This document shows positions 21,181 to 33,916 of a DNA stretch of 64,000 nt, in pieces. Numbering within the stretch: position 1 is the first letter of the stretch; every line of letters begins with the position of its first letter. Origin of the DNA: Virgisporangium aliadipatigenens (GTDB lineage Bacteria > Actinomycetota > Actinomycetes > Mycobacteriales > Micromonosporaceae); assembly GCF_016863615.1 (NCBI RefSeq), contig NZ_BOPF01000004.1, positions 124,001-188,000 on the forward strand, written 5' to 3'. A program made the position numbers and the translations under genes. The notes below the pieces were generated by a model, which was not told the DNA's origin, ran no database searches, and saw nothing but the letters and a program-made list of their open reading frames with translations.

Positions 21181-22629
21181 CTAGGTGGCGCGTAACGCGC
21201 GGAGCGAGTCGCGCATCCGCCACAGCAACGCCGCGAGCACGGCCGCCGTGAAGAAGCCCGACGCCAGCGCCGCAAGCAGGTCGACGTGCACGAACCGCGC
21301 CGCCACCGCACACCCGACGCCGACCACCAGGCCGGCCAGCAGCGGCAGGCCGAGCCGGCGGCCCAGCGGCAGCACGCCGATGCCGGTGCGCCGCAGCTCC
21401 CACAGGTAGATCGGTGCCACCACGAGAAGAGCGACCAGCAGCGAGGCGGCCCCGGCCCCGGCCGGACCCCAGTGCCGCGCACCGAGGTACAGCGCCGGCA
21501 GCAGCGCGACCAGCCACACCACCTGCACGACGAAGACGACGCGGGTGTTGGCCAGCACCACGAAGTAGTCGTAGACCAGCTCGAACATGATCTTCAGCGC
21601 GGCCAGCAGCCCCACCCACAGCAGCACCGCCGCGGCCGGCTGCCACTCGGCGCCGTACACCAGGCCGACGATCGGGCCGGCGCCGGCCGCGAGCAGCACA
21701 CACGCCGGCAGCGTGATCGCCGCGAGCAGCCCGGCCGTGGACAGGAACGTGCGCCGCATCGCCGGCGGATCCCCCTGCAGCCGGGCGAGCAGCGCCGGCG
21801 CCACGGATCGCACGGGAAGCGCGAACATGCTCGCCGGCCAGTTCGACAGATTGGTGGCGAGGACGTAGAAACCGAGGGGGACGGGACCCAACGCCGCGCC
21901 GACGACCACCTTGTCGATCTGGGTCACGGCGAAGACGACGATGCTGGAGCCGGCGAGCGGCAGGCCGAAGCGCAGCAGCCGCCCGGCGATCTCCCGGTCG
22001 TAGCCGAAGCGGACCGTGCCGGGCGCGAAGCGGATGAACAGGATCGCGCCGAGGACCGACCCGGCGAGCTGCCCGACCGCGAGGCTCATCGCGCCGAGCC
22101 CGCCGACGGCGCAGGCCATCGAGGTCAGGGCGGTCGTCCACGCCGCCGCCTGGTCGGCCACCATCTTCTTCTTCTGATGGAACTCCCGTTGCAGCATCGC
22201 CACCGGCCCGGCGACGAGCCCGGAGACGACGACGCTGATCCCGAGCACCCGCACCACCGGCACGGCGTCGGGCGCGCCCATCACGGCGCAGAACCACGGC
22301 GCCGCAAGGAATCCCGCGACGGCGATGAGCGCGCTGGCCGCCACCGAGATGGTCGTGACGGTGGGGATGATCCGCCGGGGGTCGTCCGGCCAGCGCACGA
22401 TCGCGAGGCTCACGCCCAGTTCGTTGAAGCTGAGCACGGCCAGCAGCGCCACGGTGGCCACGGCGAACGTGCCGAACTCGGCCGGCCCGAGCAGTCGCGC
22501 CAGCACCACGCCGATGGCGAGCGTGCTGAGCTTGCTGACGGCGGTGCTGAGAAAGGACCACCCGAGGGCACGACCGGCCCGGGCCGAGAGCGAACTCTCG
22601 GCCCGGACCTCGTCATTCACAACAGACAT
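21181..22629 (-). CDS. Polysaccharide flippase (MOP superfamily, Wzx-like)
   Basis: A 482-residue protein with twelve to fourteen hydrophobic helices. The N-terminus SARAGRALGWSFLSTAVSKL and ARLLGPAEFGTFAVATV match the Polysacc_synt/MviN-like lipid-linked oligosaccharide flippases, with LQREFHQKKKMVADQ as the usual basic loop after helix 4. It should turn the undecaprenyl-linked repeat unit to the outer face for the polymerase at 10803. Its ATG overlaps the stop of the large DUF4082 protein gene (TGATG), so the two are translated together. It opens the second arm of the polysaccharide locus. Confidence 0.88.
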   Translation of the reverse strand: MSVVNDEVRAESSLSARAGRALGWSFLSTAVSKLSTLAIGVVLARLLGPAEFGTFAVATVALLAVLSFNELGVSLAIVRWPDDPRRIIPTVTTISVAASALIAVAGFLAAPWFCAVMGAPDAVPVVRVLGISVVVSGLVAGPVAMLQREFHQKKKMVADQAAAWTTALTSMACAVGGLGAMSLAVGQLAGSVLGAILFIRFAPGTVRFGYDREIAGRLLRFGLPLAGSSIVVFAVTQIDKVVVGAALGPVPLGFYVLATNLSNWPASMFALPVRSVAPALLARLQGDPPAMRRTFLSTAGLLAAITLPACVLLAAGAGPIVGLVYGAEWQPAAAVLLWVGLLAALKIMFELVYDYFVVLANTRVVFVVQVVWLVALLPALYLGARHWGPAGAGAASLLVALLVVAPIYLWELRRTGIGVLPLGRRLGLPLLAGLVVGVGCAVAARFVHVDLLAALASGFFTAAVLAALLWRMRDSLRALRAT

Positions 22630-25600
22630 CAGGCTCCTGGCTTGAACACCGGATCGACCCAGAAGTTGTGGTTGCTGGTGTTGTTCGGGAAGCCGACGCC
22701 GTACTTGTACACCGCGCCGCCCTGCGGGATCGACAGCGGCCCGCTGGTGACCCCCGCCGACTGGAACCCGTTGACGTTGACCGCGTACCGGCCCACCGTC
22801 GTCGAGTACGACACGATGTACGTGGTGCCCGGTGTCAGGGTCACCGGCGCCGCGAAGAGCATCAGCTGCCAGCCGGATGCCGACTCCCCGACGAAGTTCC
22901 CGCTGGCGATGGGGTTGCCGGCGGTGTCCCACAGCGTGCCGGTGTGTGCGCCCGTGTTCGTCGGGCCCTTGTAGAAGCGCACGCCGTACGCCTTGCCGGC
23001 CGTGTTGGTGGTGAACTTGACGCCGACCTCGATGGCCGCGTTGTCGTTCCAGTTGGCGTTCGCCGGGACCGTGGTGTCCGGCCACACCGTCACCGCACCG
23101 GCCGGGAAGGTCGGCGGCGGAGGCGGCGGGTCGGCGACGAACAGCGGATCCACCCAGTAGTTGCTGCGGTTCCAGCTGGCCGTCGGGAAGCCGTCCGAGC
23201 CGTACAGGTACACGCCGTTGTTGACGCTCGTCGCCGTCAGCGGGCCGTTCACCTGTGTGCTGGTGAAGTAGTTGCCGTTGACGGAGTACCGGCCGATCGG
23301 GGCGAAGTAGGTGGCCACGTACGTCTGGCCCGCGGTCACCGTGACCGGCGAGTCGAAGTACACGGTCTGCCACCCGGACGCCGACTCCGCCGCGAACGTC
23401 GCCGTCGCGAGGCGCTGCGTGCCGTCGGAGTTCCACAGGCTGCCGGTGTGCACGCCGCCGTTGCCGGTGCCGCCCTTGTAGAAGCGCACGCCGATCACGG
23501 TGCCGTTCTCGGTCGGCGACCACTTCATGCCGAGCGTGACGGAGCTGGAGTCGTTCGCCTCGGCGGTCGCGGGCACCGCGTCGTCGGCGAACATCTTCAC
23601 GACCGTGGTGTTGCCGGGGTCGGTCGAGAACGACCACACCTTCGGTGTCGCCATCGGCAGCCCGGTGGCGTCCGTGGCGTTCACGGTGGCCGTGTACGTC
23701 TGGCCGGCCGCGAGCGCGCTCGACGGCGTGAACGTCGCCGTGCGGGTCGTGGCGTTGTACGTCGTCGTGCCCGGCACGTTGACGTTGCCGGCGTTCTTGA
23801 GCGTGAACGTCAGCGTCGCCGTGTTGATCGCCTTGCTGAACGTCGCCTGCGGCTGGATCGTCGGCTGCACGTACTTGGCGTTGTTCGCCGGCACCTGGCC
23901 GTTGACCACCGGCGGGGTGGCCCCCGAGGAGGTGAACAGCACGTCGACGTAGTAGTTCGCGGCCTGGTACGAGCCGGTCGGGAAGGTGCCCGGGTTGCCG
24001 TACACGCCGTTGCCCCCGGCGTCCTTGTTGCTGAGCATGCTCAACGGCGGCGACTCGTAGCCCTTGTAGATCGTGAACCAGCGGTCGGCCGCGTAGCGCC
24101 CGTTCGGCGCGGTGTACGACACGACGTACGTGTTGCCGGCCTGGATCTGCACCGGCTGCGCGAACGACATCGTCTGCCAGCCGGTCGCCGTCTCGTTCGA
24201 GAAGACGCCGCTCGCCAACAGGGAGCCGTTGGCGCTCCACAGCTTGGCGTTGTGCGTGCCGGTGTTGCCGCTGCCCTTGTAGAAGCGCACACCCTGCACG
24301 TAGCCGTCGGTCGTCGAGGTGAACTTGGTACCCAGTTCGACCGCGCTGGTGTCGGTGACCGACGGCGTGGCCGGCACCTTGTTGCCGAAGATCGACGTGG
24401 CTCCGGTCAGGCCCACCGCCCGCGTGGCGGTGTTGCCGATGTTGGCGCTGTCGTCGATGGCGCGCACCCGCACCGTGTGCGAACCGTCCCCGACGGCGTT
24501 GTACGTGTAGCTCCACGACGTGGTGCCGGTGGCGGGGTGCCAGGTGGCGCCGTCGGTGGAGACCTCGACGCCGGCGACGCGGCCACCGGTGTCGGCGGCG
24601 GTGCCGGAGACCGTCACCTGCGTGCCGTTGGCCAGCGTGGTGTTGGTGCCGGGGCTGCTGATCGTGACGGTCGGCGGGGTGACGTCGGTCGACTGCCCGG
24701 CCGGCTGCATGCCCGCCATCAGGGTCGTCGGCTGCACACCCATGTCGGCGAAGAGGTTGATCGTCGCCTGCTGGATGCTCTGGTCCGGCGCCTGCGGCTC
24801 ACTGAGGAAGCCGTCGTGGTTCTGGTCCAGCCCCCACGCCCACTGCACGGTCCCGGCGCCGAACACCAGCGCGCCGCTGGGCGCCCGGTACAGAGTCAGG
24901 TTGTGCGTGGTGGTGGCGTCGGTGATCACGGTGTTGCCGAAGTCCGTCAGGTACTCCGACACCGGCCCGGTCGCGGTCGACACGCGGATCAACCCCTCGG
25001 GCCGGAACCCGTTGTCGACGTCCTCGTCGGCCTCGTAGCCGAGCGTGTGCGGGGCGAGCGTGGTGCCCAGGTTGCTGGCCGCGCGGGTGGCCACCGGGGA
25101 GTTGCGCCACAGGCGGTACTTCCCCTGGTCGGCCGGCACGGCGAGGGCCAGGTCCACGCTGTTGCTCTTGAACATCGTGCCCATGAGGGCGTTCTCCGGC
25201 TTGCCGCCGCCGGTGGAGTTGGGGAAGCGCGGGTCGCGCCAGGTGCCGGTGAACTCCGTGGTCGGGTCGAGCTGGTCGGTGTTGTTCCAGGTCTCCTTGT
25301 AGCAGACCAGCGTGCGGTGCGGCGTGTTCGCGCCGTCCTTGCTGGTCTCCCACCGGGTGCGCCAGTAGACCGAGTTGCCGCTGAAGAACGCGAGGTTGGT
25401 GCCGGTGTCGCGGGCCGCCTCGACCGCCGCGCGCTGCGGGCCGGACCAGTACTCGTCGTGCCCCACGCTCAGGAAGATGTCGTGGTTGGCGACGAGGGCG
25501 CCGTTGCGGTCGCCGTCGACGTCGGTGGTGTAGCTGACGTCGTACCCGTTCTGCTCCAGGAAGCGGATCATCGGGTACTCGTTGCTGAACAGGTAGTCCC

Positions 25601-26318
25601 GGCCGTCGACCACGCCACGGGTGGCGAACGGGCGGTTGTAGCTCACCTTGAACGCGCGGCCGTTCGGACCGCCGTGGTAGAACTCCGAGCCGCCGTAGTT
25701 GTTGTACGCCTGCCACGTCGCGTCGGAGGTCTTGAAGAAGATCTTCGAGGTGCTGGCGTCGTTGCGGACCACGAACGGGATGTGGCTGGTGTCGCCGTTG
25801 CTCGGGACGGTCAGCTTGGCGATGTAGACGCCGGAGACCTGGTTGGACGGCACGACCCAGGAGGCGGAGACGCCCCAGCTGCCGCAGTCGTAGATCTCGG
25901 TGGCCGGGTCGGTGACGCAGCCCGGCTGGATCTGCGGGAGAGTGGCCGACGGCGTGACACTGGTGATCTTCCGCGCGCCCTTACCGCCGTAGTAGCCGAG
26001 GCGGTAGATGTCGATCGTGTACGCCGACGCGGTGGTCTTGATCTTGAACCTGATCTGACCGCCGACGTTCACGCTCATGTCGGTGGCGAAGCCCTGGATC
26101 CCCTCGTCGCCGGCCCCGCTGATGTCCCACACCGACGGGTCGGTGCCGGTCTTGGAGTTCTCGCAGGCGATCACGTTCACCGGGGCGGCGCACGGGTCGG
26201 ACGCCGCGGTGGCGGACCCGGGAAGGACGGCGATCCCCGCTGAGGCGACTAAGAGCGCGGCGGCCGCCTGCCAAGCGGCTAACCGCTTACGTTGATTACG
26301 CAGCGTACTGAAACCCAT
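22629..26318 (-). CDS. Secreted 1229-residue DMFase-like protein with three DUF4082 domains
   Basis: A signal peptide ends near 38 (SATA). Residues about 60-530 resemble the beta subunit of N,N-dimethylformamidase, with YTIDIYRLGYYGGKGARK and the glutamine-amidotransferase-like core FLSVGHDEYWSGPQR. An Ig-like domain (about 545-635) follows, then DUF4082 at about 641-794, an SbsA/Big_5 Ig-like domain at 797-893, and two further DUF4082 domains at about 899-1058 and 1075-1229. DUF4082 domains repeat the GVRFYKG and GWQ signatures. The start is preceded by CTGGAG at good spacing. The protein is exported and lacks an anchor. Its coupling to the flippase suggests action on the exported glycan or wall, though known relatives are not biochemically defined in that role. 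Confidence 0.82.
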   Translation of the reverse strand: MGFSTLRNQRKRLAAWQAAAALLVASAGIAVLPGSATAASDPCAAPVNVIACENSKTGTDPSVWDISGAGDEGIQGFATDMSVNVGGQIRFKIKTTASAYTIDIYRLGYYGGKGARKITSVTPSATLPQIQPGCVTDPATEIYDCGSWGVSASWVVPSNQVSGVYIAKLTVPSNGDTSHIPFVVRNDASTSKIFFKTSDATWQAYNNYGGSEFYHGGPNGRAFKVSYNRPFATRGVVDGRDYLFSNEYPMIRFLEQNGYDVSYTTDVDGDRNGALVANHDIFLSVGHDEYWSGPQRAAVEAARDTGTNLAFFSGNSVYWRTRWETSKDGANTPHRTLVCYKETWNNTDQLDPTTEFTGTWRDPRFPNSTGGGKPENALMGTMFKSNSVDLALAVPADQGKYRLWRNSPVATRAASNLGTTLAPHTLGYEADEDVDNGFRPEGLIRVSTATGPVSEYLTDFGNTVITDATTTHNLTLYRAPSGALVFGAGTVQWAWGLDQNHDGFLSEPQAPDQSIQQATINLFADMGVQPTTLMAGMQPAGQSTDVTPPTVTISSPGTNTTLANGTQVTVSGTAADTGGRVAGVEVSTDGATWHPATGTTSWSYTYNAVGDGSHTVRVRAIDDSANIGNTATRAVGLTGATSIFGNKVPATPSVTDTSAVELGTKFTSTTDGYVQGVRFYKGSGNTGTHNAKLWSANGSLLASGVFSNETATGWQTMSFAQPVQIQAGNTYVVSYTAPNGRYAADRWFTIYKGYESPPLSMLSNKDAGGNGVYGNPGTFPTGSYQAANYYVDVLFTSSGATPPVVNGQVPANNAKYVQPTIQPQATFSKAINTATLTFTLKNAGNVNVPGTTTYNATTRTATFTPSSALAAGQTYTATVNATDATGLPMATPKVWSFSTDPGNTTVVKMFADDAVPATAEANDSSSVTLGMKWSPTENGTVIGVRFYKGGTGNGGVHTGSLWNSDGTQRLATATFAAESASGWQTVYFDSPVTVTAGQTYVATYFAPIGRYSVNGNYFTSTQVNGPLTATSVNNGVYLYGSDGFPTASWNRSNYWVDPLFVADPPPPPPTFPAGAVTVWPDTTVPANANWNDNAAIEVGVKFTTNTAGKAYGVRFYKGPTNTGAHTGTLWDTAGNPIASGNFVGESASGWQLMLFAAPVTLTPGTTYIVSYSTTVGRYAVNVNGFQSAGVTSGPLSIPQGGAVYKYGVGFPNNTSNHNFWVDPVFKPGA

Positions 26319-26433: not shown

Positions 26434-26461
26434 GCCGCCGGGCCCTCGGAAGCCCGGCGGC
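26434..26461. terminator. Hairpin between the 2-epimerase and DUF4082 genes
   Basis: A perfect 10-bp stem (GCCGCCGGGC / GCCCGGCGGC) with an 8-base loop lies 16 bases past the stop of the leftward 2-epimerase gene. It has no clear T-tract in either direction. It probably ends or attenuates the 30.9-26.5 kb transcript ahead of the next leftward gene. Confidence 0.55.
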
Positions 26462-26476
26462 GGTTGTTACTCTCGG

Positions 26477-27601
26477 TTATGAGGCGGGGGTGACGGCAGG
26501 GCGCAAATCGGTCGGCCGGTGCCGGACTTCGCTACCCAGGTGAGCCATGAGCGCGTCGGCGATGCGCGCGCCGGCGTGCCCGTCCCACAGCACCGGCGTC
26601 CGCTTCGCGGGCGGGTCCGCCAGCACCAGGCCGGCCGCGGTTACGATGCGCCGCGGATCCGTGCCGATGACGAGGTTGGTCCCCTCGGAGACCGTGATCG
26701 GGCGCTCGGTGTTCTCCCGCAGCGTCAGGCACGGAACGCCCAACGCCGTCGTCTCCTCCTGCACCCCGCCCGAGTCGGTGAGCACCAGCCGCGCCGACGC
26801 CTGCAGCGCGACGAAGTCCAGATACCCGGCCGGCGCCACGGCCGTCAGGTTGGCCGGCAGGCCGACGGACTCCAGCTTCGCGGCGGTGCGCGGGTGCACC
26901 GGCCAGATCAGCGGCAGTTCCACCTGTCCCAGCGCGTCCAGCAGCCGGGCCAGGTGCGCCGGGTCGTCCACATTGGACGGCCGGTGCAGCGTCACCACGC
27001 CGTAGCCGCCCGGGGTGAGCCCGTGCCGGTGCAGCATGCCGCTGCCGAGCGCGCGGTCCAGGTTGGCGTACAGGGTGTCGATCATGACGTTGCCGGCGAG
27101 CACGATCTGGTCCTCGTGGTAGCCCTCGGCGCGCAGGTTCTCCACCGCGTCCGGCGACGGCGCGAAGAGCAGGTCCGAGACCCGGTCGGCCACCATGCGG
27201 TTGACCTCCTCGGGCATGCCCCAGTCCCGGGAACGCAGGCCCGCCTCGACGTGCGCCACGACGGCCTCCGCCTTGGCCCCGACGAGCGCGCACGCCAGCG
27301 TGGAGTTCACGTCGCCGACGACCACCACGGCGTCCGGCCGCACCTCGTCGACGAGCTTCTCGAACGCCGTCATCACCCGCGCCGTCTGCTCGGCGTGCGA
27401 GCCGGAGCCCGCACCCAGGTGGTGATCCGGTGCGCGCAGCCCGAGGTCGCGGAAGAACACGTCGTTCATCGACTCGTCGTAGTGCTGCCCGGTGTGCACC
27501 AGGCGGGCGTCGGCGCCCCGCCGTTCGAGCGCGTCGAGCACCGGCTTGATCTTGATGAAGTTGGGCCGGGCACCGGCCACGCACAGAACGGTGGGGCGCA
27601 T
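26477..27601 (-). CDS. wecB: UDP-N-acetylglucosamine 2-epimerase (non-hydrolysing, WecB/WbpI type)
   Basis: A 374-residue GT-B-fold epimerase converting UDP-GlcNAc to UDP-ManNAc, or in WbpI/WlbD relatives acting on the 2,3-diacetamido uronic acid form. GARPNFIK (10-17), D97, HVEAGLRS (117-124, with E119) and PEEVNR (130-135) are the conserved catalytic and UDP-binding positions, and SGGVQEE is the C-terminal donor loop. It lies 4 bases after the dehydrogenase gene in the same leftward operon. Presence of both fits either ManNAcA synthesis or the WlbABCD route. Sequence alone does not separate the two. Confidence 0.9.
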   Translation of the reverse strand: MRPTVLCVAGARPNFIKIKPVLDALERRGADARLVHTGQHYDESMNDVFFRDLGLRAPDHHLGAGSGSHAEQTARVMTAFEKLVDEVRPDAVVVVGDVNSTLACALVGAKAEAVVAHVEAGLRSRDWGMPEEVNRMVADRVSDLLFAPSPDAVENLRAEGYHEDQIVLAGNVMIDTLYANLDRALGSGMLHRHGLTPGGYGVVTLHRPSNVDDPAHLARLLDALGQVELPLIWPVHPRTAAKLESVGLPANLTAVAPAGYLDFVALQASARLVLTDSGGVQEETTALGVPCLTLRENTERPITVSEGTNLVIGTDPRRIVTAAGLVLADPPAKRTPVLWDGHAGARIADALMAHLGSEVRHRPTDLRPAVTPAS

Positions 27602-27605
27602 CGCC

Positions 27606-28862
27606 TCAGATCACCTCGACGTTCTCGCCGCTCATGCGCCGGCGCGTGTCCATCACGTACCTCGCGTTGGCGCGCACCAGCTCCAGGTCGAACTCGTCGT
27701 GGTCGGTCAGCAGGATCACCGCGTCCGCGGCGGCCACCTCCTCCGCCGTCAGCTCGCACCGGCGCACCTTCGCCAGCGCCGGAACGGCCTCCACCACGTG
27801 CGGGTCGGCGGCGCTCAGTTCGGCGCCCATCTCCAGGAGCAGCTCCGCCACGCGGGTGGCCGGCGACTCCCGGGCATCGCCGGTGTTCTTCTTGTAGGCC
27901 AGCCCCAGCAGCAGCACCTTCGAGCCGCTGACGGCCCGCTGGCGGGTGTTGAACGCCGCCACCAGCCGGCGCACCACGTAGTCGGGCATGTGGTTGTTGA
28001 TGTCGTTCGCCAGCTCGACGAAGCGCACGTTGCGGCCGAGCGTGCGCTGCACCCGCCACGACAGGTACGACGGGTCGATCGGCAGGCAGTGCCCGCCCAC
28101 ACCCGGCCCCGGCGTGAACTTCATGAACCCGAACGGCTTGCTCGCCGCCGCGTCGATCGCCTGCCAGATGTCGATGTTGAGGTCGTGCGCCACCATCGCC
28201 ATCTCGTTGATCAGTGCGATGTTCACGTGCCGGAACGTGTTCTCGATGAGCTTGGCCATCTCGGCCTCCCGCGGCGAGGAGACCGGCACCGTCGTGTCCA
28301 CGATCGTGTCGTAGAACTCCTGCACCACCTTGAGCGAGACCTCGTCGATGCCGGCGACGATCTTCGGCGTGGTGACGATGTCCCACGTCTCGTTGCCCGG
28401 GTCGATCCGTTCGGGGCTGAACCCGAGGTGGAAGTCGCGGCCGGCGATGAGCCCGGAGCCCTCCTCCAGGATCGGCCCGACGAGTTCCTCCGTGGTGCCC
28501 GGGTAGGTCGTCGACTCCAGCACCACCGTCGCGCCCGGCTGGAGGAACCGCGCGAGCATCCGCGCCGAAGCCTCCACATAGGACAGATCCGGGGCGCCGT
28601 CGCGCAACGGCGTCGGCACCGTGATGATGCCGATGTCGAAGCCGCCGCACTCCCGGGCCGACGAGGTCGCCTTGTAGCGTCCGGTGGCTACGACCGCCGC
28701 GAGACGTTCACTCGAAATGTCCTCCACATAGGACTGTCCGGAGGCGAGGCGGCCGATCCGGGCCTCGTCGATGTCGTAGCCGATGACCTGGTGACCCTGC
28801 TCGGCGGCCCGGACCGCGAGCGGAAGTCCGACGTAGCCCTGACCGGCGATGACAACCCGCAC
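27606..28862 (-). CDS. wecC: UDP-N-acetyl-mannosamine/glucosamine 6-dehydrogenase
   Basis: A 418-residue NAD-dependent dehydrogenase that oxidises the C6 alcohol of a UDP-HexNAc to a carboxylate in two steps. AGQGYVGLP at 6-14 binds NAD, and the catalytic cysteine is C259 in GVGGHCLPIDP. KLIENTFRHVNIALINE and AYKKNTGDARESP are the family central and C-terminal signatures. GTG at 28862 follows GAAGGAG at ideal spacing. WecC makes ManNAcA and WbpA makes GlcNAcA; which applies here is not clear. It lies 13 bases after the WecG-type gene. Confidence 0.9.
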   Translation of the reverse strand: MRVVIAGQGYVGLPLAVRAAEQGHQVIGYDIDEARIGRLASGQSYVEDISSERLAAVVATGRYKATSSARECGGFDIGIITVPTPLRDGAPDLSYVEASARMLARFLQPGATVVLESTTYPGTTEELVGPILEEGSGLIAGRDFHLGFSPERIDPGNETWDIVTTPKIVAGIDEVSLKVVQEFYDTIVDTTVPVSSPREAEMAKLIENTFRHVNIALINEMAMVAHDLNIDIWQAIDAAASKPFGFMKFTPGPGVGGHCLPIDPSYLSWRVQRTLGRNVRFVELANDINNHMPDYVVRRLVAAFNTRQRAVSGSKVLLLGLAYKKNTGDARESPATRVAELLLEMGAELSAADPHVVEAVPALAKVRRCELTAEEVAAADAVILLTDHDEFDLELVRANARYVMDTRRRMSGENVEVI

Positions 28863-28875
28863 CGTGTTTCTCCTT

Positions 28876-29661
28876 CTATCGAACGGGTTCCGTCGCGGCC
28901 TGACGCGTCGGTCGCACCATCTCGCGGGCGACCAGCGCGACGAACGCCGCGTTGGTGGTGACGTAGCGCTTGCCGAGCCGGCGGGGCTCCTGGAGCGCGC
29001 GGTAGGCCCACTCCATGCCGACCCGTTGCCAGGACCGCGGCGCACGGCGGACCACACCGGCGAGCACGTCGAACGACCCCCCGACGCCGTGCACCACCTT
29101 CGCGCCGCTGTGCTTGCCGAAGTCGGCGACGAACTTCTCCTTCTTGGGCGAGGTCATCCCGAGGAACAGCAGGTCGGCCCCGCTGCGCGCGATGCCCTCG
29201 GCGACCTCCTGCGCCTCGCTGTCGGCGAAGTAGCCGTCCCGGCTGCCCGCGACGCGCAGCTTCGGGTACCAGGTGGCGACGCGGCGTTCCATCTCGGCGA
29301 GCACGTCGGCCTTGGCGCCGAGGAAGTACACCGACAGGCCCCTGCGCTCGGCCTCGGCGAGCAGCCGCTGGAACAGGTCGATCCCGGCGACCCGCTCCGG
29401 CAGCCGGGCCCGCAGCAGGCGGCTCGCCCACACCACGGACTGGCCGTCGGCGACGATCACGTCGCAGCCGGAGACCGCCCGGTGCAGTTCGGGATCGCGG
29501 CGCATCTTGACGACCTTCGCCGCGTTGATGACGCCGACCTCGAGCAGCCGGTTGTCCTTCACCGCGTCCAGGCAGCGCTCCACGGTCTCGTCGAGGGTGA
29601 GCGCGTCCACGTCGATGCCGAAGAGCTTGCGCTTGCCGTCCGGCCGGTGCCGCCCACTCAT
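28876..29661 (-). CDS. WecG/TagA/CpsF-family glycosyltransferase (GT26)
   Basis: A 261-residue GT26 enzyme. GVINAAKVVKMRRD and VIVADGQSVVWASRLL (the catalytic Asp position in TagA is in this DG region), then VAGIDLFQRLL, VYFLGAKADV and LFLGMTSPKKEKFV are the family signatures. Members transfer ManNAc or ManNAcA to undecaprenyl-PP-GlcNAc as the second sugar of ECA or wall teichoic acid linkage units. This suits the adjacent UDP-ManNAc(A) genes. The ATG overlaps the stop of a 35-codon bridging ORF (ATGA). Confidence 0.88.
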   Translation of the reverse strand: MSGRHRPDGKRKLFGIDVDALTLDETVERCLDAVKDNRLLEVGVINAAKVVKMRRDPELHRAVSGCDVIVADGQSVVWASRLLRARLPERVAGIDLFQRLLAEAERRGLSVYFLGAKADVLAEMERRVATWYPKLRVAGSRDGYFADSEAQEVAEGIARSGADLLFLGMTSPKKEKFVADFGKHSGAKVVHGVGGSFDVLAGVVRRAPRSWQRVGMEWAYRALQEPRRLGKRYVTTNAAFVALVAREMVRPTRQAATEPVR

Positions 29662-29765
29662 CGGTGCCCCCCGCGCAGCGTCGTGGCGGCGCCCGAGGCG
29701 CCGCCTTCCCTCGTCGCTGCGCTCCTCAGTCCAGGCGGCACCGCGCCGCCCCGCCGCGCGCTCAT
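29658..29765 (-). CDS. 35-residue bridging mini-ORF made from the dispersed element
   Basis: This small ORF starts with an ATG overlapping the stop of the upstream toroid gene and ends with a stop overlapping the ATG of the WecG-type gene. Ribosomes could therefore pass along all three by reinitiation. The product is basic, short and unlike any family I know. Most of it is encoded by the 80-bp element that also forms the N-terminus of the aminotransferase at 3085. It may be a translational coupler rather than a functional peptide. Confidence 0.5.
   Translation of the reverse strand: MSARRGGAVPPGLRSAATREGGASGAATTLRGGHR
29687..29765 (-). repeat. 80-bp dispersed element, copy 2
   Basis: Matches 3085-3164 with about ten differences. 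It begins at the ATG overlapping the upstream stop, as in copy 1, but here the frame ends after 35 codons. Retained reading frame and retained ATGA junction in both copies argue that the element moves or recombines as a start-codon cassette. Confidence 0.75.
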
Positions 29766-30892
29766 CGGGCTAGCCAGGCGTAGAGGAGCCAGCCGAACTC
29801 GTACGGCCGGCACTCGCGGTCCAGCGCGAACGGCTTGTACGCCGCGTCGATCCCCGGCATGTGCAGCCCGGGGACCGCCTTCGTGGTGAGCCCCTGCACC
29901 GCGCGAACGACCTTCTTCGGGTCGCCGCGGTAGATCTTGCGCCAGGTCACGCCGTCGGCGTCGTGCACGATCGGCTCGGTCTCGTGCCCCCGGTGCTCGG
30001 CCGGATCGGTGATCCAGCGCAGCCCGCGTTCGATCGCCTCCCGGTAGCTGGGGCCGCCCGCGTCGGTCAGGTCGAGCAGCGCCATCGGGCCCATCGACGC
30101 CTGGTGCACGGTGTAGACCGGGTAGCCCTCGACCAGGCCGCCGGTGCGGGCGTCGTAGTGCCACCACCACTGGCCGCCGGGGCCCTGGAGTTCGCAGATC
30201 CGGTCGGCCGCGCGGACCGCCGCGGTCTTCGCCTCCTCGTCGCCGCGCATCCGGTGCAGGATGGCGAGCGCCTGGATCGGGTAGACCTGGTCGGCGTAGC
30301 AGGCGACGTGCGAGCGGTACCAGGGCAGCAGGCCCGGTCCCGTGCCGTGCGGGAAGAGCGGACTGTTTCCGTGGCGGGAGACCAGCAGACGTTCGCGGGC
30401 GGCCGCCAGGTGGTCCTTCACCTCCGCCTGTCCGATGGAACTGGCCAGAGCCGCCACGACCCACGATGCCTCGACCACGTACTGGGGCTTGTTCGGGTCG
30501 TCCAGCTCGCGGAGGCGTTCCAACGCCTTGGGCAGCAACGGGTGCGCACTCTGGGCGGCGGCCCATGCGATCAGGCCGGCGTCGCCGAGATTGGTGGTCC
30601 GGTCGAGGCGGCTCACGAGGAGCGCCACGAACTCCTCGACGTTCATTCCGCCGAGCACGGCCCGCTGCTTCTCCTCGGGCAACCATTGTGCCCCGAGCGC
30701 CACGATTGCGGCATAACGTGTGCTGGTGCCGCGTAATTCAAGTTCGCCGGATGTCGACCGCGCGCGGGTGAACGCGAACTCGTCGGAATCCGGACGGTAC
30801 ATCCGGGGAAGTCCCTCAAGTGCGACGGTGCAGAGCCGATCGACAAGTCGCGTGTTGTCGCCGTCCAGTTCGGCGCGCAGCGGCCACGTCAT
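29762..30892 (-). CDS. Alpha/alpha-toroid protein (prenyltransferase/terpene-cyclase-like fold)
   Basis: A 376-residue protein built of helical repeats. ICELQGPGGQWWWHYDARTG is a QW-like motif of squalene-cyclase/prenyltransferase toroids, and YVVEASWVVAAL and YPIQALAILHRM are further repeat helices. There is no DxDD or DDxxD cyclase motif in the usual place, so a catalytic role in lipid cyclisation is doubtful. A glycan- or lipid-binding or glycosidase-like (six-hairpin) role is equally possible. ATG at 30892 is preferred over ATG 30940 because the fold starts there, behind a GGGGGT run. It is the first gene of the leftward operon that leads to wecB. Confidence 0.6.
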   Translation of the reverse strand: MTWPLRAELDGDNTRLVDRLCTVALEGLPRMYRPDSDEFAFTRARSTSGELELRGTSTRYAAIVALGAQWLPEEKQRAVLGGMNVEEFVALLVSRLDRTTNLGDAGLIAWAAAQSAHPLLPKALERLRELDDPNKPQYVVEASWVVAALASSIGQAEVKDHLAAARERLLVSRHGNSPLFPHGTGPGLLPWYRSHVACYADQVYPIQALAILHRMRGDEEAKTAAVRAADRICELQGPGGQWWWHYDARTGGLVEGYPVYTVHQASMGPMALLDLTDAGGPSYREAIERGLRWITDPAEHRGHETEPIVHDADGVTWRKIYRGDPKKVVRAVQGLTTKAVPGLHMPGIDAAYKPFALDRECRPYEFGWLLYAWLAR

Positions 30893-31045
30893 CAACGGAT
30901 TACCCCCAAGAAACGGTTTCTGGCTTGGCGAACGGTACATGTGCAGTGCTCATGTCCGAAGTCAGGAATTGGCAGTAAGGTGTTGGCCGTTTGTGCGCGA
31001 TTCGGTACCCCGGCTAGTGGACGAGGCCGACGGAAGGACGAGGGA

Positions 31046-31657
31046 ATGGACCAGGGGAGTGCGGGATCGGCCGTTCGGGTGATGCCGGGTGCGGATATCG
31101 ACGAAAAGGCCCGGATCGGCGACGGGACAACTGTTTGGCACCTGGCGCAGGTGCGCGAAAACGCCGTGGTCGGTACGCGGTGCAATATCGGGAGAGGTGC
31201 CTATGTGGGGCCCGGTGTCCGGATCGGGGACAATTCGAAGCTGCAGAATTACGCGTTGGTCTACGAACCGGCCGAATTGGGCGATGGGGTGTTCATCGGA
31301 CCGGCGGCGGTGCTCACGAACGACGAGTTCCCCCGGGCGGTCACTCCCGACGGCGTGCTGAAGACGGGTGAAGACTGGACCGCGGTCGGGGTGGTGATCG
31401 GGGACGGCGCCTCGATCGGGGCGCGCGCCGTGTGCGTGGCCCCGGTGCGCATCGGGCGCTGGGCCCTGGTCGCCGCCGGTGCTGTCGTAACGACGGACGT
31501 GCCCGACTTTGCCCTGGTCGTGGGCGTTCCGGCGCGTCGGGTCCGCTGGGTGGGTCGCGCCGGCGTCCCCCTCGAACCGGACGGCGACGGCGACTTCGTC
31601 TGCCCGAAGACGGGTGCGCGGTACGTCGAGACGGACGGTGTGCTCGCTGAGAAGTGA
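31046..31657 (+). CDS. WlbB/WbpD-type UDP-sugar N-acetyltransferase
   Basis: A 203-residue left-handed beta-helix acetyltransferase. The hexapeptide turns ADIDEKARIGDGTTVWHLAQ, VRENAVVGTRCNIGRGAYVG and LQNYALVYEPAELGDGVFIG are near-diagnostic for the branch that acetylates the 3-amino group of UDP-GlcNAc3NA (WlbB, WbpD). NDEFPRA is the conserved loop. C-terminal residues form a small zinc-ribbon-like tail, FVCPKTGARYVE. ATG at 31046 follows AGGACGAGGGA. It is divergent from the toroid gene and converges on the sugar-transferase gene, so it is expressed separately from both arms. Confidence 0.85.
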   Translation: MDQGSAGSAVRVMPGADIDEKARIGDGTTVWHLAQVRENAVVGTRCNIGRGAYVGPGVRIGDNSKLQNYALVYEPAELGDGVFIGPAAVLTNDEFPRAVTPDGVLKTGEDWTAVGVVIGDGASIGARAVCVAPVRIGRWALVAAGAVVTTDVPDFALVVGVPARRVRWVGRAGVPLEPDGDGDFVCPKTGARYVETDGVLAEK

Positions 31658-31681: not shown

Positions 31682-33205
31682 TCAGTAGGCCCCGGAGCGG
31701 CGCAGAACGGCGCTGAGGGTGCGGGCCAGGATCGCCAGGTCCATGGTGAGTGACCAGTTCTCCACGTAGGTCAGGTCGAGCCGGATGGACTCCTCCCAGG
31801 AGAGGTCGGAACGGCCGGAGACCTGCCACAGGCCGGTGAGCCCGGGCTTGACCACCAGCCGGCGGCGCATGTCCGCGGGGTAGCCCGCCACCTCGCGCGC
31901 CAGCGGCGGGCGCGGACCCACCAGGGACATGTCGCCCTTGAGCACGTTGAGCAGCTGCGGGATCTCGTCGAGGGAGAGCCGGCGCAGCCACTTGCCGAGC
32001 GGCGTGACCCGGGGGTCGTCGCGCATCTTGAACAGCTCGCCGTCGGTCTCGTTCAGGTCGAACAGGTCGGAGAGCCGCGCCTCGGCGTCGAGGTACATCG
32101 AGCGGAACTTGTACATCATGAACGGCTGGCCGTTCTTGCCGACGCGTTCCTGACGGAAGATCGCCGGCCCGCCCGCACCGCCCGGCGCGAAGCGCACCAG
32201 CGCGGCGATGGCCACCAGCAGCGGCGCCGACATGAACAGCAGCTGCAGCGCCAGGGCCCGGTCGAACACGGTCTTGACGAAGCGCCGGCCGCCCTTGAGT
32301 CGCGGGTGCTCCACGTGCAGCATCGGCAGCCCGTCGACGGGGCGGATCGTGGTGCGGTCGCCGGCGACGTCGACCAGGGTGCTGGCGACGATGAGGTCGA
32401 TCTCGTCGCGTTCGAGGCGCCACGCCATGCGCCGCAGCGCCGCGCCGTCGATCTCGGCACACGAGAGCACCACGACCGTGTCGGCGCCGGCGTACGCCAC
32501 CGCCGCGGCGACGTCGTCGAACGTCCCCAGCACCGGCGGCAGGTTGCCCGCGGTGCGGCGCTCGGCCGGGCCGATCTGGCGTTCGGGCAGGCAGGCACCG
32601 ATGACGCCGAGCCCGTGGTAGCGCTCACGGCTGAGCCGGCGCGTCATCTCTCCCACCGCCAGGTCGTGTCCGACCAGGATGACCCGGTGCAAACGCTCAC
32701 CACGCGCCCATGAACGGTGCAACCGTTGCCGTGCGGCATAACGCCACGCGACTCCGGCAAAAGTCATCAACGGCATCGCGATGATGACGTATCCACGGGC
32801 TAATGGAAAATTGGCCACATAGGCAACGAATGCGAGTGCCGCCGTGAGTCCGAGACCCGAGCGAAAAACTCTGGCGTATTCCTCGTTTCCCACGAAGAGG
32901 TGCCGATGCTCGTACGTGCGGTTGAGAGCGAGCGCGGCGAGCCAGGCGAACGGTAATGCGAGCGTCACCCACAGGTATGTGCGCGTGGAGGGTGTCCCCG
33001 AGGTCGGTCCGAATCGAATTTGCAGTGCCGCGAATGCGGACGCGAGACCGACCAGCGAGTCGACTCCCGCGAGCGTGGCCACATAACGCAGGCGCCAGCC
33101 GTTGCGGCCGGCGCCGAGGGTGTGTGGCGTCGGGTGGGACGGGTATCGCTTTACCGGCTCGACTGCGGTGGTGTCAATGGTCGGTTTCATCTCGACCGAG
33201 TGCAC
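31682..33205 (-). CDS. Polyprenyl-phosphate glycosyl-1-phosphate transferase (initiating enzyme)
   Basis: A 507-residue membrane protein of the WbaP/WcaJ family. Five hydrophobic helices lie in the N-terminal 340 residues with a CoA/NAD-binding-like domain between, followed by the catalytic domain. VFDRALALQLLF, VGKNGQPFMMYKFRSM, DEIPQLLNVLKGDMSLVGPR and VKPGLTGLWQVSGRS are the family blocks. It moves a hexose- or HexNAc-1-phosphate onto undecaprenyl phosphate and so starts repeat-unit synthesis. GTG at 33205 is chosen because GGAGG ends five bases upstream, although an ATG exists at 33217. Its promoter must lie in the 0.7 kb gap upstream. Confidence 0.9.
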   Translation of the reverse strand: MHSVEMKPTIDTTAVEPVKRYPSHPTPHTLGAGRNGWRLRYVATLAGVDSLVGLASAFAALQIRFGPTSGTPSTRTYLWVTLALPFAWLAALALNRTYEHRHLFVGNEEYARVFRSGLGLTAALAFVAYVANFPLARGYVIIAMPLMTFAGVAWRYAARQRLHRSWARGERLHRVILVGHDLAVGEMTRRLSRERYHGLGVIGACLPERQIGPAERRTAGNLPPVLGTFDDVAAAVAYAGADTVVVLSCAEIDGAALRRMAWRLERDEIDLIVASTLVDVAGDRTTIRPVDGLPMLHVEHPRLKGGRRFVKTVFDRALALQLLFMSAPLLVAIAALVRFAPGGAGGPAIFRQERVGKNGQPFMMYKFRSMYLDAEARLSDLFDLNETDGELFKMRDDPRVTPLGKWLRRLSLDEIPQLLNVLKGDMSLVGPRPPLAREVAGYPADMRRRLVVKPGLTGLWQVSGRSDLSWEESIRLDLTYVENWSLTMDLAILARTLSAVLRRSGAY

Positions 33206-33916
33206 GCCCGCCTCCATCAGCTATGCCGACCATGGTTTTTCTCGTGCGCATCGTATGCGGTGGATCCCATGAGGGAACGCGCGGCGGAAGCACCACGGCA
33301 GAAGGCTGTCCAATCGAGCGGCTTTACGCCAGTGCGTCTCGCGTATTGAACACTAAAGGTCGAGTTAATGACAACTAAAACTAGTCAGCCTGCTCGCCTT
33401 CGGCTCAAAGCAGCAAATCGGGAAGATCCATCCTCGGCACCGCAGATCAGGCGGGTTCTTCGAGGGTGACGGCGGTCGATCCGTTGGGGCGTAAAAGCTT
33501 CTTCGTCCCGACTGTCCTAAAAGGACCATCGTGCTCATGACGGAATGTTGCACAATGAGCACGGAACGTCGAGAGCCCTTGCCCCGTCTATGGATCTGAG
33601 CGTGAGGGCGGCCCTACCCCTAGTGTCGGGAACCGGCCTGACCTGGCGCGCGGCGTGTCCCACATCATGGGACACTTAAGGTTCGCTCTGCGCAGGCTCA
33701 AGATCACTCTCGGTCCTGATATTCAGAATGTAATTGCGGAGAAACTGAGAGTCCGCATTTTCGGCCTGTCGCGCGATGAATTCGTCCCGCCGAACGATCG
33801 GTTGCCCGTATTCGACTTTCGGTCAGCGGCCCTCATTCGTGCGGCGTGAACGGATCCTATCGCCGGACATTCAAGAGATCCACCATCCGGAGTATCGGTT
33901 GGGTCAAGGGCCCCGC
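33206..33916. other. AT-richer 0.7 kb gap with inverted repeats and no convincing gene
   Basis: Base composition and third-position use drop well below the surrounding genes. The only plus-strand ORF of size (33655-33849) shows no GC-rich third-position bias and no known family. Structure includes two perfect inverted repeats at 33514-33526 (GTCCT AAA AGGAC) and 33530-33563. The gap should carry the promoter of the sugar-transferase gene. Confidence 0.5.
33530..33563. promoter_or_regulatory. Perfect 9-bp inverted repeat upstream of the sugar-transferase gene
   Basis: CGTGCTCAT, 16-base spacer, ATGAGCACG. Both arms match perfectly, with a centre-to-centre distance of 25 bases, which suits a dimeric regulator bound to the same helix face at two turns or a weak hairpin. 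It lies 325 bases before the transferase start. Confidence 0.4.

Follow-up and report, generated by a model that had tools for sequence, protein, structure and literature searches.

In this computational analysis, the gene directly upstream of a Wzx-type flippase in Virgisporangium aliadipatigenens was found to encode an exported 1229-residue protein whose core carries the complete metal-ligand set of a dimethylformamidase (DMFase), and the gene is closely linked to glycan export throughout the Micromonosporaceae. The strongest new facts reported here are that the iron site of DMFase is present in full and that linkage to glycan export is tight across the family. Our preferred reading, which we hold at about even confidence, is that the protein is a secreted iron amide hydrolase of the DMFase superfamily, which docks on an exported surface glycan and strips it of N-acyl groups. 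Because the iron site is complete and the gene recurs beside genes that build and export glycans, the protein probably trims the sugar coat outside the cell; we propose that a common surface glycan, on which both proteins work, accounts for its being made together with the flippase.

The window, i.e., the whole 64,000-nucleotide stretch of DNA that was analysed, contains the gene pair and its domains as follows:

22629..26318, minus strand: exported DMFA2_C / Big / DUF4082 protein, 1229 aa (open reading frame, Pfam)
24816..26018, minus strand: DMFase-like core PF20254, residues 101-501, with an Ig-like part ahead of a ThuA/GATase-like alpha/beta domain (Pfam, AlphaFold2, structure matches)
24465..24674, minus strand: Big_7 Ig-like domain, residues 549-618 (Pfam)
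23946..24380, minus strand: DUF4082 module 1 (167 bits)
23622..23918, minus strand: Big_5 Ig-like domain, residues 801-899 (Pfam)
23151..23579, minus strand: DUF4082 module 2 (173 bits; model pLDDT 97.6)
22656..23072, minus strand: DUF4082 module 3 (144 bits)
21181..22629, minus strand: Wzx-type MOP flippase, 482 aa (TGATG junction, Polysacc_synt_3, 14 hydrophobic segments)

An earlier note on this DNA, which took in both genes (21181-26318), had described a TGATG junction between the exported protein and a Wzx-like flippase. This junction was confirmed; the TGA stop of the 1229-residue frame overlaps the flippase ATG, and an AGGAG lies 4 nt upstream of that ATG. The ATG start of the 1229-residue frame is itself preceded by GGAGAACGAGC, with a GGAG ribosome site. 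The flippase matches Polysacc_synt_3 with 196 bits in a Pfam scan and, with 14 hydrophobic segments (about 12-14 expected), belongs to the Wzx proteins of the MOP superfamily. Judged from sequence, the N-terminus of the 1229-residue protein is a typical export signal that ends at about residue 39. A simple motif and hydropathy test detected neither a sorting signal nor a C-terminal membrane segment in this protein or its homologues, and cell-wall sorting or a C-terminal membrane anchor was therefore dropped as an explanation. Between wecB and the DMFase-like gene lies a 10-bp GC-rich hairpin (26434-26461), which lacks a clear T-run on the coding strand and is a possible processing or termination site; the protein and the flippase may therefore form their own transcript, apart from wecB.

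A DMFase-like core combined with Ig-like domains and three DUF4082 modules, as the earlier note had suggested, was recovered by Pfam in the order DMFA2_C (101-501), Big_7, DUF4082, Big_5, DUF4082, DUF4082. The core belongs to PF20254 (DMFA2_C, the C-terminal family of the DMFase large subunit), scoring 340 bits against a cut-off of 27 over profile positions 1-372 of 374, and the three DUF4082 stretches together score 454 bits; a match to CE4 polysaccharide deacetylases (NodB-type, Polysacc_deac_1) was absent from the Pfam scan of the 1229-residue protein. An AlphaFold2 model of residues 41-545 of the protein (mean pLDDT 79, pTM 0.87) matched two structures best, 8huy (Z 29.2, 421 residues) and that of DMFase, 6lvb (Z 28.1, 424 residues). 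The next structural family, the levan-utilisome chain 8aa2_G, scored far lower (Z 11.5), and some resemblance to the site-one protease 9csd (Z 9.4) was also seen. The earlier description of the protein as amidohydrolase-like is apt only with respect to the hydrolysis of an amide; the core is of the DMFase type and not of the TIM-barrel amidohydrolase superfamily.

In the structure of the Paracoccus DMFase, Fe(III) is held by Y399, Y440 and E521 in a 2-Tyr-1-carboxylate site, the Y440A, E521A and H519A mutants have no activity, and N547 is an active-site residue (PMC7686228). A profile built from 43 homologous cores and aligned against solved structures matched none but those of DMFase and N-acetyl-(R)-beta-phenylalanine acylase. 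It placed the following equivalents in the window:

25704..25706, minus strand: Tyr205, equivalent of the Fe ligand Y399 (profile alignment; invariant)
25677..25679, minus strand: Tyr214, equivalent of the Fe ligand Y440 (profile alignment; invariant)
25452..25460, minus strand: His287-Asp-Glu289, equivalents of the catalytic H519 and the Fe ligand E521 (profile alignment; His and Glu invariant)
25374..25376, minus strand: Asn315, equivalent of N547 (profile alignment; invariant)

The register of this alignment was confirmed by the structure entries of the DMFase mutants Y440A and E521A. The core thus has equivalents of two tyrosine ligands and one glutamate ligand, plus the histidine and the asparagine, and all five residues (Y205, Y214, H287, E289 and N315) are invariant in 43/43 homologous cores. 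They are likewise invariant in 23 further cores of 36-64% identity, which include one from a Bacteroidetes genome and six distant cores at 36-41% identity; in the distant cores, insertions of up to 8 residues change the spacing between Tyr205 and Tyr214 and both tyrosines are kept. The earlier note had raised the prospect of a core without a conserved pocket, and the conservation of the catalytic site residues in homologues speaks against this. A pseudoenzyme with a lost active site is ruled out by the same conservation. We infer that the core contains iron and hydrolyses amides.

Full-length relatives were found in Actinoplanes and other Micromonosporaceae, Cellulomonas, Agromyces, Microbacterium, Promicromonospora and others, giving 67 homologous loci, of which 65 are distinct (L008/L102 and L026/L113 are the same genomes seen twice). 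At least two glycan-gene families lie within 10 kb in 57/67 loci, from Micromonosporaceae, Cellulomonas, Agromyces, Microbacterium, Cryobacterium and Pseudofrankia; homologues are therefore usually, rather than seldom, found near polysaccharide genes, the opposite of what the earlier note had set as counting against its reading. Wzx was detected by tblastn in 38 of the 67 loci, and in 13 loci from several genera the flippase is the next gene downstream, on the same strand and almost or entirely without a gap; the TGATG junction recurs in L099, and an overlapping GTGA is found in L092. At most of the remaining loci, Wzy or an ABC-2 exporter accompanies glycan genes. Loci without Wzx often have an ABC-2 exporter, and Wzx and an ABC-2 exporter occur together in none.

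The linkage was further surveyed in 301 genomes of the window's family, the Micromonosporaceae, using tblastn and Pfam searches for flippases. The protein and a strong Wzx were both present in 62 genomes, the protein alone in 19, Wzx alone in 48 and neither in 172. Strong Wzx was therefore found in 62/81 protein-positive and 48/220 protein-negative genomes (Fisher p 7e-18, a value that is too optimistic, as are the other p values, since the genomes are related and the test loci themselves supplied the neighbour models). In protein-positive genomes, 61 of the 63 strong Wzx genes lie within 10 kb of the protein gene, 57 of them on the same strand and 13 immediately downstream, while the chance of finding Wzx within this distance is about 0.3% per gene. 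Despite the kinship of the genomes, these distances leave little doubt that the protein gene is linked to Wzx in this family.

No recognised glycan gene was found nearby in 10/67 loci, namely five from Promicromonospora, one from Xylanimicrobium, two from Microbacterium, and L111 and L117, both of which belong to the window's own genus, Virgisporangium. The Promicromonospora and Xylanimicrobium relatives adjoin a peptidyl-tRNA hydrolase gene, and the two Microbacterium relatives are near an MFS gene. At such loci the protein may act on glycans made elsewhere in the genome, or it may have another role. In Promicromonospora (L016, L023, L025, L028 and L032) the gene adjoins ribosomal protein L25 as well as peptidyl-tRNA hydrolase, and several Cellulomonas loci have these two genes next to it as well, a hint that its place on the chromosome is fixed.

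In many genomes of the Actinoplanes type there are two DMFA2_C/DUF4082 genes, separated by about 10-25 kb and apparently part of one glycan locus (L169, G161:C9:361500-381000; also G224, G186, G146, G240, G242, G202, G030, G214 and G200), and the second copy can be part of an open reading frame some 2,500 residues long. A different DUF4082 protein, about 660 aa long and otherwise devoid of known domains (L101:1716-3701 and its cluster, 10 loci), also recurs in these glycan loci.

In the window, the neighbourhood of the gene pair is composed of:

26477..27601, minus strand: wecB-type UDP-GlcNAc 2-epimerase (TIGR00236 over cut-off)
27606..28880, minus strand: nucleotide-sugar dehydrogenase, likely a UDP-ManNAc dehydrogenase, wecC-type (TIGR03026 over cut-off)
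28876..29661, minus strand: WecG/TagA/CpsF glycosyltransferase (TIGR00696 over cut-off)
29762-30940, minus strand: conserved soluble protein of 392 aa, adjoining WecG, of no known Pfam or NCBIfam family
30941..31657, plus strand: hexapeptide sugar acyltransferase-like gene (from sequence; cluster C11, shared with the L010 hexapeptide transferase), its true start probably internal to this frame
31682..33217, minus strand: polyprenyl-phosphate sugar phosphotransferase, the initiating enzyme (TIGR03025 over cut-off)

WecB, the sugar dehydrogenase, WecG/TagA, the 392-residue protein and the initiating phosphotransferase thus lie upstream of the 1229-residue gene on the same strand. The 392-residue protein is common to L078, which has the same wec genes. 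As the WecB, WecC and WecG families are all represented, the repeat made here probably contains N-acetyl-mannosaminuronic acid. In the proposed mechanism, the flippase would move the lipid-linked repeat outward (probably with N-acetyl-mannosaminuronic acid here), and the enzyme would then bind the glycan through its three lectin-like DUF4082 modules. A mononuclear Fe(III) would be held in the core between Tyr205, Tyr214 and Glu289, His287 and Asn315 would help to hydrolyse the amide, and the removal of N-acyl groups from amino sugars would alter the charge or attachment of the glycan.

With regard to which amide is cleaved, profile searches with models from the test loci compared 22 Wzx loci that have the protein with 40 control Wzx loci of the same family, from genomes lacking it. 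Sugar aminotransferase (12/22 vs 9/40) and hexapeptide acyltransferase (11/22 vs 3/40) were commoner near the protein, Gfo/Idh dehydrogenase was not enriched (6/22 vs 9/40), and NAD epimerases were commoner at the control loci, at loose thresholds. A neighbour-gene enrichment by tblastn, biased to the test loci, was set aside, and part of it vanished in the profile searches. The excess of aminotransferase and acyltransferase gives modest support to a link with N-acyl sugars. By the glycan-locus linkage and the conserved catalytic site, the earlier proposal of a glycan-modifying surface factor is supported in part, its enzyme activity and N-acyl-sugar substrate being presumptive.

Alternatively, the protein could belong to the glycan locus and hydrolyse amides with its iron site, but cut an amide-linked amino-acid or peptide decoration of the glycan, or cell-wall peptide amides, and not sugar N-acyl groups. 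The same five invariant residues speak for this alternative too, and an exosortase-A-type acyl-CoA ligase (TIGR03098) and decarboxylase (TIGR03099), both over cut-off, stand beside the gene in several Actinoplanes loci, about ten in all (the latter a pyridoxal decarboxylase; e.g., L102:12091-13302, L105:13600-15165 and similar loci), so that the amide there could also be a non-sugar decoration. These genes are found in only about 10-12 of the 67 loci, however, and are absent from the window, and we regard this alternative as unlikely, if still worth weighing.

The DUF4082 modules bear on how the protein would meet its substrate. The module model (pLDDT 97.6) is a beta-sandwich. It matches the lectin-like domain of Cwp84 (Z 12.8, 132 residues, 2.6 A) and, also among its best hits, components of phage baseplates, PHR domains and portions of esterases that act on polymers or carbohydrates, including the carbohydrate esterase PbeAcXE (Z 8.7). 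This predicted lectin-like beta-sandwich, a fold expected of carbohydrate-binding modules, fits docking on a polymer without proving it; the docking role suggested earlier is thus plausible, and retention of the protein at the cell surface is conjectural. Several beta-sandwich modules, three of them lectin-like, could also belong to a scaffold or glycan-binding protein with a structural metal site, whose task would be to keep the polymer in place after export or to organise it, and the resemblance of the core to the levan-utilisome chain would suit such a purely binding role. Against this, His287 and Asn315, which correspond to DMFase residues outside the metal-ligand set, vary no more than the ligands themselves; we hold this account to be rather improbable.

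Placement of the gene at the export step would also suit a transferase, in which an amide or acyl group, activated at the iron site, would serve to join the glycan to another molecule, e.g., the cell wall, and DMFase-type chemistry could in principle use an acceptor other than water. Against this, both characterised relatives are hydrolases (PMC7686228; 8huy title), and we consider it very unlikely. Least likely of all is a secreted scavenging amidase that adjoins the flippase by chance, which the ten loci without recognised glycan genes would allow and the proximity of 61/63 strong Wzx genes, at a chance of about 0.3% each, strongly contradicts.

If our preferred reading of an N-deacylating hydrolase is extended, the protein could tentatively represent an undescribed extracellular glycan-editing class, mainly in actinobacteria, in which a ferric 2-Tyr-1-carboxylate site N-deacylates exported amino-sugar polymers; we consider this possible, with the balance somewhat against it. 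On that view, a superfamily that naturally processes glycans or amides would have given rise to the solvent-degrading DMFase as a side branch. In which natural setting the DMFase iron site works has been unclear, as DMF was not introduced until 1893 (PMC7686228), and a widespread intact site tied to surface-glycan export offers a testable natural role for it. Moreover, a glycan N-deacylation route other than that of CE4 enzymes and a role for DUF4082, on which almost no literature was found, become possible. The literature searched on DUF4082, DMFA2_C, and DMFase with polysaccharide held no account of the present system and no published description of such a secreted DMFase-like protein of glycan loci.

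Compared to known systems, the protein shares its core fold and all five iron-site residues with the large subunit of the Paracoccus DMFase (6lvb; PMC7686228), at about 18% identity, but it is exported, carries Ig-like and DUF4082 modules and is encoded in a glycan locus. The pentraxin-like domain II, which is inserted in domain I of DMFase, is absent from the present core; only the profile positions between 59 and 103 stand opposite DMFase residues 48-337, which leaves no room for it. The closest solved relative by both profile (E 3e-13) and fold (Z 29.2) is N-acetyl-(R)-beta-phenylalanine acylase (8huy, 8i5a), which acts on an N-acetyl amide; its identity to the present core is about 20%, and the local alignment does not fix the equivalence of the second tyrosine. 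With Wzx/Wzy surface-glycan clusters, the locus shares Wzx, Wec-type sugar genes and the initiating phosphotransferase, whereas a secreted DMFase-superfamily protein as a recurrent member of such clusters was not found in the literature searched. Extracellular polysaccharide N-deacetylases of the CE4/NodB type, such as PgaB and IcaB, strip N-acyl groups from exported glycan; the job proposed for the present protein is alike, while its fold is unrelated to theirs.
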